This document shows, piece after piece, positions 47,967 to 64,000 of a stretch of 64,000 bases of DNA. Position numbers and translations under genes: made by a program. Every line of letters starts with the position of its first letter. Within the stretch, counting starts at the first letter, position 1. Origin of the DNA: an uncultured Acidovorax sp. GTDB taxonomy: Bacteria > Pseudomonadota > Gammaproteobacteria > Burkholderiales > Burkholderiaceae_C. Location of the stretch: NCBI GenBank assembly GCA_913774625.1, contig CAJYHL010000063.1, forward strand, positions 62,001-126,000. Reading direction: 5' to 3'. The notes below the pieces were generated by a model. The model did no database searches. It saw only the letters and a program-made list of their open reading frames with translations, and had not been told where the DNA came from.

Positions 47967-50900
47967 TCAGCGATCCGCTTCGCGCAGGCGCTGGCCCAGC
48001 GCGGCACACAGCGCCGGGTGGCGGATGATGTCCAGATGACCGGCGCCGGCGATGAGCTCGGTGGCCGCCACGGGCGCATGGGCCGACCAGTCGCGCAGCC
48101 GGGCATCGGGCATTTGCAGCGACCGCTCGGCCTGGAACACCTGCAGCGGCTGGGCCATGCGCCCGGGCGCATGGCGCGCCAGCCGCACGCGGCTGTCCAG
48201 CGTGGCCCAGAGCGCCATCTCGGCCGCGTCGTCGCCGGGGCCGTCCTGCGGCACGGGCTGTGCGGGGTCGCGCAGTTGCTCGGCCATCCACTGGCGCTCG
48301 CGGCCGTCCATACGGGCGAGCAGCGCCTGCCAGTGCTCCCGCATGCTGGAAGCAGCCACCCATTCGCCCAGCGCGGCATCGACATCGGCAGGGGCCAGCG
48401 CCTGCGCAGGCTGCATCGACTCGGGCTCGAACACATCGACCATCGCCAGCAGGCCCAACTCCACCCGGCCCTGCAGGCGCCGGGCCACTTCGAAGGCCAG
48501 ATCGCCGCCAATGGACCAGCCCAGCAGCGCGCAGCGCCCGCCCGGCGGCAGCTGCGATGCGATCCACTGCGCGTATTCATCCGCCAGCGCCTCGATGTCG
48601 AAGCCGCGCCAGCGCCGCTCGGTATAGACATGGCTCACGAAGCCGTGCACCGGCCGATCGCCCGCCAGGGCCTGGGCCAGGGGCAGGAACTCGCGCGTGC
48701 TGGCGATCAGGCCCGGCAGGCAGAAAAGCGGCATGCCCGCGCCGCCGGCCTGCAGGCAGACGGCGCCATGCGATGGGGATGCAGGGGCTTGGGCGCCTTC
48801 GCTGCATTGCTGCCAGCGCAAGGCCAGCGCGGCCAGGTCGGCGGCCTGCATCACATCGGCCAGCGCGATGCGCGCCGCAGCGGGCCGGGCGCTACGCAGG
48901 CGCGCGAGCAGCTGCAGGCAGAGGATGGAATCGCCGCCCAGCTCGAAGAAATTGTCATGGCGGCCGACCTGCGGCACCCCCAACAGTTCACGCCAGATGT
49001 CCGCCAGCATGGTTTCGGCTTCGCCCCGGGGCGGCTCGAACGCCCTGCCGCCGGCCAGCAGCTCGCCTGCATCCGGCAAGGCCTTGCGGTCCACCTTGCC
49101 GTTGGCGTTGAGCGGCAGCTGCTCCAGCACCACGATGGCGCGCGGCACCATGTAGTCGGGCAGGCGCTGCGCGAGCCGCCCGCGCAGCGCATCGCCCTGC
49201 ACCGCAGAGCCCGGCTGCGCGGACACATAGGCCACCAGGCTGCCCGATGCGACGACGACCACCGCCTGGCGCACCTCAGGCTGGTCCAGCAGCTGCGCCT
49301 CTACTTCCCCCAGCTCGATGCGCAGCCCCCGGATCTTTACCTGGTGGTCCAGCCGGCCCAGGTAGTCGATCTGCCCCTCCGCATTCCAGCGCACCAGGTC
49401 GCCCGTGCGGTAGAGCCGCTCGCCGCCTCCGAACGGGCTGGCCACGAAGCGTTCGGCCGTGAGGCCCGGCTGGTGCAGGTAGCCCCGCGCCAGGCTGACG
49501 CCGCCGATGTAGAGCTCGCCTGCCACGCCTTGCGGCACGGGGTTCAGGTCGGCATCCAGGATGTGGGCCTGGGTGTCGCTGATGGGCCGGCCTATGGGCA
49601 CTTGGCTGGCTCCGTCGTCCCGGCAGGTCCAGCGGGTGACGTGGATGGTGGTCTCCGTCGGGCCGTAGAGGTTCTGCAGGCTCACGCCCTTGAGGCGCTG
49701 CAGCGCCTGGCGCTGGGTCTGCGCGGGCATGGCTTCGCCGCCGACCATGATGTGCTTGAGCCGGGTGTGTTCTTCGATGCCGGGGTGGGCCAGGAAGGCC
49801 TGCAGCATGGCGGGCACGAAGTTGAGCGCGGTGACCTGGTGCCGCCGGATGAGCTGGGTGATGCGTTCGGGGTCGCGCTGCTCGCCCGGCTGGGCCAGCA
49901 CCAGGCGGGCGCCCTGGCTCAAGGGCCAGAAGATTTCCCAGCAGGAGACGTCGAAGCCTATGGGGGCCTTGTGCAGCACGGTGTCGCCCGCTTGGGGCTG
50001 CAGTTGGTAGCTGCGCTGCATCCAGGCCATGCAGCTGTGCAGGGCCCGGTGGCGGATGGCTGCTCCCTTGGGTTGGCCGGTGGAGCCGGAGGTGTAGATG
50101 ACGTAGGCGAGGTGGTCGCCGTGCACGGGGACGTCGGGGTCGGTGTCCGGTTCTGCGCTCAGGTCCAGCTGGCCGATGTCCAGCTGCTGGATGGCGGGCT
50201 GCGCGGGGATCAGGTCCCGGGTGGCTTCATGCACCAGCAGCAGCTCCATGCCGCTGCGCGCGGCCATGCCGGCCAGGCGCTGGCCGGGCTGGTCCGGGTC
50301 CAGCGGCAGGTAGGCGCCGCCGGCCTTGAGGATGGCGAGGATGCCCACGATGAGTTCGGGCGAGCGCTGCATGCAGATGCCCACCAGAACGTCCGGGCCC
50401 ACGCCCTGGCGGCGCAGGTGGTGGGCGAGGCGGCTGGCCTGGTCGTTGAGCTGGCCGTAGCTCCAGCGTTCTTCCGCAAAAAGCAGCGCAACAGCCTCTT
50501 CGGGCTGGCGGGCGATCTGGCGGTGGATGGGCTCGAACGGGGGTTCCTGCTCGGTATTGAGGGCCCAGGACGCCAGGCGCGCTTCTTCGGCCGCACCCAG
50601 CAGGGGCACGTCGCCCACGGGCTGATCGGGGGCCGTCGCCAGCGCCTGCAGGATGGCCGTGTAGTGGCCTGCCATGCGCTCCATGGCTTCGGGCTCAAAC
50701 AGCTCGGCCGCGTAGATGAAGCTGGCCTGCACCCGCCCCGCCTCGTCTTCGGCGGTGTTCAGCACCAGCTCGAACTGCGCGGCCGGATCGGGCAGCGCAT
50801 AGCCTTCGGCCTGCAGGCCGGGCAGCGCGGCGAAGGCGCGGCCGTCGATGCGCTCGTGGTTGAAGGCGACCTGGAACAGCGGGTTCACGCTCAGGCTGCG

Positions 50901-62900: not shown

Positions 62901-64000
62901 GGGCCACATCCGGTGCCGCCTCGGCGGCGGGCTGCCATTCCACGGCCAGCGCGGCCTGGCGCAGCACCACCTGCATCGGTTCGGGCAGGCCCTCCCACAG
63001 CACGGCGGTGCGCAGGATGTCGTGGCGTGCGATCACGCGGTTCAGGCAGGCGGCGAAGCCTTCCAGCCGCTCGCGGCCATCGAAGGCCAGCAGCAGCGGG
63101 GTGACGTAGGCGTCGCCCCGGGTCTGCAGCCGGTGGTGGAAGAGCATGCCCTCCTGCAGCGGCGCCAGCGGGTAGATGTCGGCGATGTTGGCGGCGCCGC
63201 CCGGCACGGCGGCGGCGATGCGCGCGATCTGTGCGGCGTCCAGCTCGGCCAGCGTGAGCATGGCGGGCTCGATGGCGGTGCAGCCCGGCGGAATGCCGTT
63301 GGGCGGCACGGCCACGGCCTCGTCGCTGGCGCCGTGCCGGGCCACGGCCCGGGCGAAGTCGGCCAGCTGCGGGTGCGCGAAGAGCGTATGGACCGGCACG
63401 GCATGGCCCAGCTGGCGCACGCGCTCCATCAGCCGCAAGGCCAGCAGCGAATGCCCGCCCAGCGCGAAGAAGCTGTCGCTGCGGCCTATGCCCTGCACGG
63501 GCAGCTCCAGCAGTTCGGCCCAGGCCTGGGCCAGCGCGGCTTCCAGCGGCCCGGCCGGCGCTTCGCGGGCCGGGCCTGCGGCATCGCCCTGCCCCCACTG
63601 CGGCGGCGGCAGCGCGCGGCGGTCGATCTTGCCGTTGACGCTGAGCGGCAGCGCGGCCAGCACGGCCACGGCCGCGGGCTGCATGTAGTCGGGCAGCGCG
63701 GCGGCCAGGCGGCCGCGCAGCGCAGCGCCATCGACGGCCTGCCCCGCGCGCAGCGACACATAGCCCGCCAGCCGCATGCCCTGCGGGCCGGCATGGGCCA
63801 CCACCACGGCCTCGCGCACCTCGGGCTGGGCCAGCAGCTGCGCCTCGACCTCGCCCAGCTCGACCCGGAAGCCGCGCACCTTCACCTGGTGATCGATGCG
63901 GCCCAGGTATTCCAGTTCGCCGGCATCGTCCCAGCGCACGAGGTCGCCCGTGCGGTAGAGGCGCGCGCCGGGCGCGCCGGGCCCGGCCAGGGGGTCGGCC
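59971..64000 (-). CDS. NRPS, partial: A(C-terminal end)-PCP-C(atypical)-A-PCP
   Basis: The gene continues beyond the right edge; 1343 codons are visible. It opens with the last cores of an A domain (LYRTGDLVRW, then core A8 and A10 NGKIDRRALP), a PCP (FFALGGHSLLAL, ~63440), a C-superfamily domain (about 63230-61900; DIYPLAPLQEGMLFHH and SHHLVLDHTTLELLVEE), a full A domain (YTSGSTGRPKG near 61360) and PCP (FFELGGHSLMAV). Pocket residues of the full A domain read D-V-W-H-V-S-L-I-D, a serine code. The C-like domain has HHxxxDH instead of HHxxxDG, as I recall for interface domains that partner aspartyl beta-hydroxylases. Stop overlaps the next ATG (TGATG). Confidence 0.93.
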   Translation of the reverse strand, partial: ADPLAGPGAPGARLYRTGDLVRWDDAGELEYLGRIDHQVKVRGFRVELGEVEAQLLAQPEVREAVVVAHAGPQGMRLAGYVSLRAGQAVDGAALRGRLAAALPDYMQPAAVAVLAALPLSVNGKIDRRALPPPQWGQGDAAGPAREAPAGPLEAALAQAWAELLELPVQGIGRSDSFFALGGHSLLALRLMERVRQLGHAVPVHTLFAHPQLADFARAVARHGASDEAVAVPPNGIPPGCTAIEPAMLTLAELDAAQIARIAAAVPGGAANIADIYPLAPLQEGMLFHHRLQTRGDAYVTPLLLAFDGRERLEGFAACLNRVIARHDILRTAVLWEGLPEPMQVVLRQAALAVEWQPAAEAAPDVAQALSALADPAHFRIDVRQAPMLRALAAHDRAQGRWLLQLPSHHLVLDHTTLELLVEEIALMQQGRDAELPEPVPYRRFVAQALRGVGAAEHEAFFTRMLADVDEPTAPFGLLDVRGDGTRVREAQRRLPATLARRLREQARRHGVVPATLFHLAWALVLGQATGRDDVVFGTVLFGRMQGGQDTDRAWGLFINTLPLRVRLGAAGTADCLQATHAALARLLRHEHARLSLAQRCSGLAGGAPLFTALLNYRYTQPQAPGAELLEGMQVLGADERTNYPFTLSVDDLGDGFELVAQIHEAVDAGRIAALMESALAGIADALQEDASHPVCEIGLLDAGESARLQGWSVNAEACGAFEPVHALIARQAALRPEAEALAFGDAAMRYGELDAQANRVAHRLRRLGVGPEVRVGIAMERSFEMVIGLLAILKAGGAYVPLDPDYPSDRLAYMAEDSGIGLLLTQSRLAAHLVAQLGERLPEPLRALQVLALDALDVSAEPAQAPDVPLHAESLAYVIYTSGSTGRPKGAANRHGALHNRLAWMQAAYGLQPGDTVLQKTPFSFDVSVWEFFWPLMAGARLALAAPGDHRDPARLAALIQRHAVDTLHFVPSMLQSFLAHADLAACASLRRVVCSGEALPASARDELLQRLPGAALYNLYGPTEAAIDVTHHTCTADGRAQVSIGRPIAGLRTYVLDAVMNLVPAGVPGELYLGGAGLGRGYAGRPGLTAERFVADPFDAQGGGRLYRTGDLVCWSGDGQIDYLGRLDHQVKLRGLRIELGEIEAQLQAQPEVGEAVVVARQDAGGAGDAVLVAYVAARPGAEASAGPLDTALLRQRLARALPGHMVPAVIVPLERLPLNANGKLDRKALPAPGQALARAFEPPLGAAETALAAVWAELLGVQRVGRSDHFFELGGHSLMAVQLAARAEAVLQAPLALQDIFRHPTLKDMAAVALDAATRKPLGAALSDIDSFIDSMEEAA

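Follow-up and report, generated by a model that had tools for sequence, protein, structure and literature searches.

Organization of the locus

We examined a window of 64,000 nt from an uncultured Acidovorax sp. (positions 62001-126000 of contig C63, CAJYHL010000063.1; assembly of 4.66 Mb in 73 contigs), in which positions 47967-64000 contain three genes for nonribosomal peptide synthetases (NRPSs) of a putative siderophore pathway. The genes, here nrpsA, nrpsB and nrpsC, are collinear on the minus strand, overlap by one base at both joints and have frames that remain open across the covered stretch (Table 1). The part of NrpsA inside the window comprises the end of module 2 with its carrier domain, a condensation (C) domain, C3, an adenylation (A) domain, A3, and a carrier domain. 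Pfam comparisons of NrpsB identified three Condensation-family domains (C, epimerization (E) and C), two A and two carrier domains, and the last carrier domain of NrpsC contains the motif LGGDS. Profile searches returned six C/E matches on C63, with expectation values from 5.5e-47 to 8.7e-106, and five full A domains at <=9.3e-82, A4 excepted (2.0e-79), indicating that the NRPS domain matches are not due to chance.

Table 1. Coordinates in the window of the NRPS line and its accessory genes (PCP, peptidyl carrier protein; TE, thioesterase).
Feature	Position	Strand	Remarks
NrpsA, 3' part	59971..64000	-	2465-codon frame; leaves the window and reaches the contig end (window-equivalent 67368)
C3	61876..63183	-	dual C/E-like from motif HHRLQTRGD
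A3	60751..61815	-	code DVWHVSLID, Ser
NrpsB	52076..59971	-	2631 aa, C4-A4-PCP-E-C5-A5-PCP
A4	57347..58408	-	code DGEGSGGVT, published modified-ornithine code (PMC12283262)
E domain	55343..56641	-	HHLVVDG, NYLGQFD and position; residue 4 predicted to become D
A5	52820..53884	-	code DFWNIGMVH, Thr (PMC3207962)
NrpsC	47967..52076	-	1369 aa, C6-A6-PCP-TE
A6	49476..50525	-	code DVWNMGLIH; nearly identical to the truncated A1 where C63 ends
Thioesterase domain	48006..48731	-	GWSIG motif
TonB-dependent siderophore receptor	45667..47898	+	TIGR01783, over its cut-off
GNAT acyltransferase	44527..45630	+	PF13523; probable N-hydroxyornithine acetyltransferase
Formyltransferase	43688..44530	+	PF00551; probable N-hydroxyornithine formyltransferase
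Cyclic peptide export ABC transporter, PvdE-like	41615..43336	-	TIGR01194, over cut-off
L-ornithine N5-monooxygenase (OrnMO)	40078..41442	-	PF13434

Beyond the window, C63 carries one more module and ends within a further A domain, A1, which is a broken near-copy of the terminal one: the final 270 nt of the contig are 96.3% identical to A6, as compared with 70.5-75.5% to A2-A5. Contig C12 contains an extracytoplasmic function (ECF) sigma factor, MbtH, a type II thioesterase and a fatty acyl-AMP ligase (FAAL) with its acyl carrier protein (ACP), and ends within the C domain that follows, thus supplying the NRPS with an upstream FAAL-ACP-C loading module. C12 and C63 are not connected on any contig of this genome; their link is by synteny with genome G001 and Diaphorobacter aerolatus, in both of which the sigma factor, type II thioesterase and FAAL share a contig with the TE-receptor-GNAT-formyltransferase-ABC-OrnMO block (in D. 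aerolatus, the OrnMO is truncated where the compared stretch stops). We infer that exactly one A domain spans the gap. The internal repeat formed by A1 and A6 explains why the contig broke. For the missing part of A1, this assembly contained no further C domain above the cut-off, and no obvious A-domain fragment among 26 matches, of which the partial ones on C10, C39, C57 and C64 are unread.

Substrate codes and predicted product

A preliminary description of this DNA, made from the sequence alone, had reported hand-read codes for A3-A6 together with the E domain and the thioesterase, and HMM alignment returned the same letters; for A2, just beyond the window, it gave the ornithine-type code DGEDHGTVT. 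Nine of nine letters of DGEGSGGVT, DFWNIGMVH and DGEDHGTVT, and the eight letters of DVWHVSLI, are identical to published codes, which also verifies our choice of code columns. In the literature, fifteen codes are given for ornithine bearing modifications such as N-hydroxy, acetyl or formyl groups, DGEDHGTVTK is ornithine-derived and DGEDHGTVVK codes for lysine (PMC12283262), while DVWHVSLI corresponds to Ser, DFWNIGMV to Thr, and DLTKIGHV was matched to an Asp code (PMC3207962). The code of A6 is one letter off the published ornithine code DVWNIGLIHK, and A6 of Paracidovorax wautersii DSM 27981 reads exactly DVWNIGLIH. The serine, the epimerized hydroxyornithine-type residue, the threonine and the release by a thioesterase, all proposed earlier, are supported. 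The terminal residue, previously left as X, is most likely N-hydroxyornithine.

C2 (HHRLQAEGD) and C3 (HHRLQTRGD) fit the pattern HHxxxxxGD, which we take to be the motif of dual C/E domains. They matched other bearers of this motif at 55-64%, as compared with about 31-33% for the C domain that follows the E domain in genomes G002 and G007, and they point to a D-configuration at positions 1 and 2.

An ornithine N-monooxygenase, a hydroxyornithine acyltransferase and matching A domains are all present, and the OrnMO, formyltransferase, exporter and receptor at 40078-47898 support the hydroxamate siderophore that had been proposed. To that proposal we add the GNAT acyltransferase, previously unlisted, and the FAAL start and modules 1 and 2, which lay outside its view. 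We consider it probable (roughly 0.62) that this FAAL-started, most likely six-module Paracidovorax NRPS line produces an acylated, all-hydroxamate hexapeptide siderophore, acyl-OHOrn-Orn-Ser-D-OHOrn-Thr-OHOrn (OHOrn, N5-hydroxyornithine). In this scheme, the FAAL would load an acyl chain onto its own ACP, and modules 1 to 6 would incorporate, respectively, OHOrn (through A1, the near-copy of A6), ornithine, serine, D-OHOrn (via the E domain), threonine and OHOrn, with the TE freeing the finished chain. The monooxygenase would N-hydroxylate ornithine, and the formyltransferase or the GNAT enzyme would N-formylate or N-acetylate it, such that the three hydroxamates at positions 1, 4 and 6 would together give hexadentate coordination of Fe(III). 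Export of the product would fall to the ABC pump, and import of the iron complex to the TonB receptor. The monomers, iron binding, acyl length, placement of formyl and acetyl groups and mode of release are predictions, and the last residue may be free or cyclized.

Relationship to known siderophore clusters

Among the closest known systems are the clusters for acidobactin and vacidobactin from Acidovorax citrulli and Variovorax paradoxus S110 (PMC4598715). Genomes G002 and G007 contain what appear to be acidobactin-type loci, with the order FAAL-C-A(DVWNIGLIH)-PKS-C-A(Ser)-C-A(DGEGSGGVT)-E-C-A(Thr)-C-A(DLTKVGHVG) (PKS, polyketide synthase); the check for a TE in the last protein covered G002 alone. 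Our line shares with them the Ser, DGEGSGGVT-E and Thr modules and the receptor-to-OrnMO block, but it carries the DGEDHGTVT module at the place of the PKS that follows module 1, and a DVWN(M/I)GLIH terminal module instead of the Asp module DLTKVGHVG. The terminal proteins of G002 and G007 share only 41-42% identity with NrpsC, as compared with 60% for that of G001. Of the acidobactin/delftibactin-like product suggested earlier, the acidobactin-type kinship is supported by the receptor-GNAT-formyltransferase-ABC-OrnMO order common to G001, G002 and G007. By gene order the locus belongs in the acidobactin cluster family, but its product should be a tris-hydroxamate; this probable ornithine-rich lipopeptide would extend, as a new variant, a family of siderophores that related bacteria are known to make. 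In genome G001, contig C12 (L110, L111) contains a short line, FAAL-A(DVWNIGLIH)-PKS-A(Ser)-A(DVWNIGLIH)-TE, accompanied by the accessory block seen here, and a second FAAL line occurs on its contig C62.

Variochelins from Variovorax are also acylated peptides with two N-acetyl-N-hydroxyornithines, and Variovorax FAAL proteins are 60-70% identical to the FAAL found here; unlike the predicted product, they contain Arg-methylmalonate, beta-hydroxyaspartate and Pro, with a TauD embedded in the PKS protein VarG (PMC10999976). Amphibactins and moanachelins are acylated hydroxamate peptides as well, and the amphibactin headgroup, one serine and three ornithines, is nearest in chelation type, but these are marine Vibrio products with a four-residue headgroup, likened here by product description only (PMC6836290). 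A literature search, with most subscription journals outside it, returned no paper describing this product in its title or the beginning of its abstract, and none containing the code DVWNMG.

Alternative products

The preliminary description had tentatively placed hydroxyaspartate (OH-Asp) before Ser. A product of this acidobactin/delftibactin-like kind, containing OH-Asp plus a ketide unit such as that of acidobactin, would be in keeping with the gene order and with the three shared modules. However, A2, which precedes Ser, does not read DLTKxGHx, no Asp code of the DLTK type occurs among A2-A6, and the assembled part of the line lacks tandem C domains such as those preceding the Asp modules of G011 and V. 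boronicumulans CC172. Among 17 genomes of the genus, 15 contain the FAAL gene, 13 besides this genome and P. wautersii (G016). A modular acyltransferase is present in each of these 13. In 11 of them it is no more than about 5 kb from the FAAL, and in G013 and G015 it occupies frames of 1623 and 1617 codons on a different contig (membership of a KS-AT-KR-ACP module, i.e., ketosynthase, acyltransferase, ketoreductase and ACP, was checked in G002 only). A second type of TauD occurs in 12 of the 13, G014 being the exception: in ten it adjoins the FAAL or forms part of an NRPS frame on the same contig, and it is on another contig in G013 (3033-codon NRPS frame) and G015 (578-codon frame). Neither part was found in this genome or in G016. 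Here, the only acyltransferase domain is of FabD size, in a 322-codon frame, and the only TauD protein, outside the NRPS line, is of the common, high-scoring type present in 16 of the 17 genomes; it is probably a taurine dioxygenase, because the same type occurs in the FAAL-less G008 and G009. Neither OH-Asp nor a PKS extension module is thus supported, with the reservation of the one unassembled gap, and we regard a product containing them as very improbable.

Replacement of ornithine by lysine at position 2 of the same line is unlikely, but deserves more weight. The lysine code DGEDHGTVVK differs from that of A2 by one letter, and DGEDHGTV occurs in the first module of the P. syringae pyoverdine synthetase (PMC3207962), but all nine letters of A2 match the ornithine-derived DGEDHGTVTK (PMC12283262). 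A slightly stronger, though still doubtful, contender is a terminal hydroxyornithine left unacylated and cyclized to a piperidone on release, giving two acyl-hydroxamates and one cyclic hydroxamate. Six ornithine codes are stated to be cyclized by the TE at terminal positions (PMC12283262); conversely, A1 and A6, being near-copies, would be expected to accept one and the same monomer, which at position 1 presumably could not cyclize in this way. A line of more than six modules, with the C12-C63 gap containing further sequence besides the remainder of C1 and a single A domain, seems improbable. No read or contig of this genome crosses the gap, and the P. wautersii assembly breaks within this A domain too, but the two fragments are complementary near-copies of A6 and no other contig piece carries a C domain above the cut-off.

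Several observations weigh against the acylated tris-hydroxamate hexapeptide that we prefer. A1 is unassembled and its code unread, so that the gap could hold more, and in P. wautersii the junction at A1 may be a misassembly or a rearrangement. A2 could specify lysine, as discussed, and DVWNMGLIH had no exact counterpart among the published codes compared. Additionally, DGEGSGGVTK and DVWNIGLIHK are described as exceptions not readily told apart (PMC12283262), which we take to mean that each was seen with more than one ornithine modification; on our reading, these codes cannot tell the kind of modification. The best models for the receptor were FhuA and FoxA, both below their equivalog cut-offs, and the PvdS-type motif TAAAT-N14-18-CGT had no hit in the window, as compared with 0.51 expected.

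Relatives and homogenization of A1 and A6

The nearest named record for the FAAL gene is from P. wautersii DSM 27981 (86%). This strain (L026, L112) has modules 2-6 in the same order and, A6 apart, with the same codes, the domains being 80-91% identical. It also shares the accessory block, lacks a modular acyltransferase and has no TauD besides the common one; it differs in the code of A6 and in having module 1 broken at a contig junction. The code of its A1 reads DVW before the contig diverges, meeting unrelated opposite-strand sequence after LIRRHQ (L026 about 10300, NZ_FONX01000004.1). A C2-A2 query, with two candidates scored per genome, retrieved at E<=1e-220 six of 399 family genomes sampled from a larger group; one is our own, and the other five are 52-56% identical and have different codes in the aligned modules. 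P. wautersii was not among the hits listed, probably because it is outside the sample. In this analysis the line has thus been seen in two species only. In a plasmid search, none of 134 records with a match contained 80% of the query in one place, and the best of the matches listed had 33% coverage at 74.3%.

Within P. wautersii, A1 and A6 share 93-100% identity over the N-half of A1 (100-nt windows, position 1251 to 2001), as compared with 50-80% upstream, and over the short C-half the identity falls from 100% to 93% and then below 83%. Between species, A6 is 74-79% and 68-71% identical in two N-half stretches and 84-97% elsewhere in the core. Over the N-half the paralogues are thus closer than the orthologues, and A1 and A6 look homogenized by gene conversion. 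The contrast is weaker in the C-half, where A1 and A6 of our genome are 93-97% identical and the values between species are 88-90% for A1 and 89-97% for A6. Similarly, two A cores of G011 (first module and first module after the PKS; C1, L029-L030) are 99.7% identical over 1789 nt, and two of V. boronicumulans PgBe293 are 90-96% identical. This is not universal, since A domains of G001 reach at most 85%. Recombination of A domains is in itself already known (PMC9205934). The near-identity of A1 and A6 explains the split cluster in both assemblies, and short-read assemblies can miscount the modules of such repeat-bearing lines.

In D. aerolatus KACC 16536 (L121 4740-10981), the same cluster has its NRPS reduced to FAAL-ACP-C-A-PCP-TE, with broken frames. 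Its C domain shares 62% identity with C1 of P. wautersii, as compared with 53% with C6, and the PCP-TE part is 64% identical to NrpsC; this is what would remain after a deletion between A1 and A6.

We tentatively suggest, at somewhat less than even odds, that two Paracidovorax species turned an acidobactin-type line into one for a tris-hydroxamate, free of PKS and OH-Asp, through the gain of an ornithine module and the exchange of the terminal one, while repeated gene conversion kept the first and last hydroxyornithine A domains alike, and that this repeat predisposes the line to collapse, the D. aerolatus remnant (FAAL-C1-A-PCP-TE) being an example. If true, a photoreactive hydroxy-acid chelator was traded for a non-photoreactive one through domain exchange. 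Of the FAAL-bearing genomes searched in this genus, 13/15 follow the rule of an acidobactin-type line with a PKS. Because three hydroxamates, rather than hydroxamates plus a hydroxy-acid, are predicted from a recognizably related cluster, this would be an example from nature of an NRPS whose metal-binding groups changed through exchange of modules and A domains.

Regulation and neighbouring features

A Fur-box-like site precedes the ECF sigma factor gene (L013 8379-8397), and all its letters recur in P. wautersii (L026 at 4171); it scored 14/19 against the Fur-box consensus, a value reached by 1/40 Markov copies of the contig. We also looked for a candidate for pyoverdine-type deacylation, and found one penicillin-amidase-family protein, on contig C43. 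The GNAT enzyme at 44527-45630 had only far matches, below the cut-offs, to aminoglycoside acetyltransferase models, and these give no evidence of resistance. The left part of C12 (L013) contains two near-identical C-terminal blocks, presumably resembling hemagglutinin-type contact-inhibition proteins. Within the window, overlapping Fur-box-like sites (13/19) at 30294-30318 lie upstream of a 248-codon frame (29431-30177) resembling a membrane protein.

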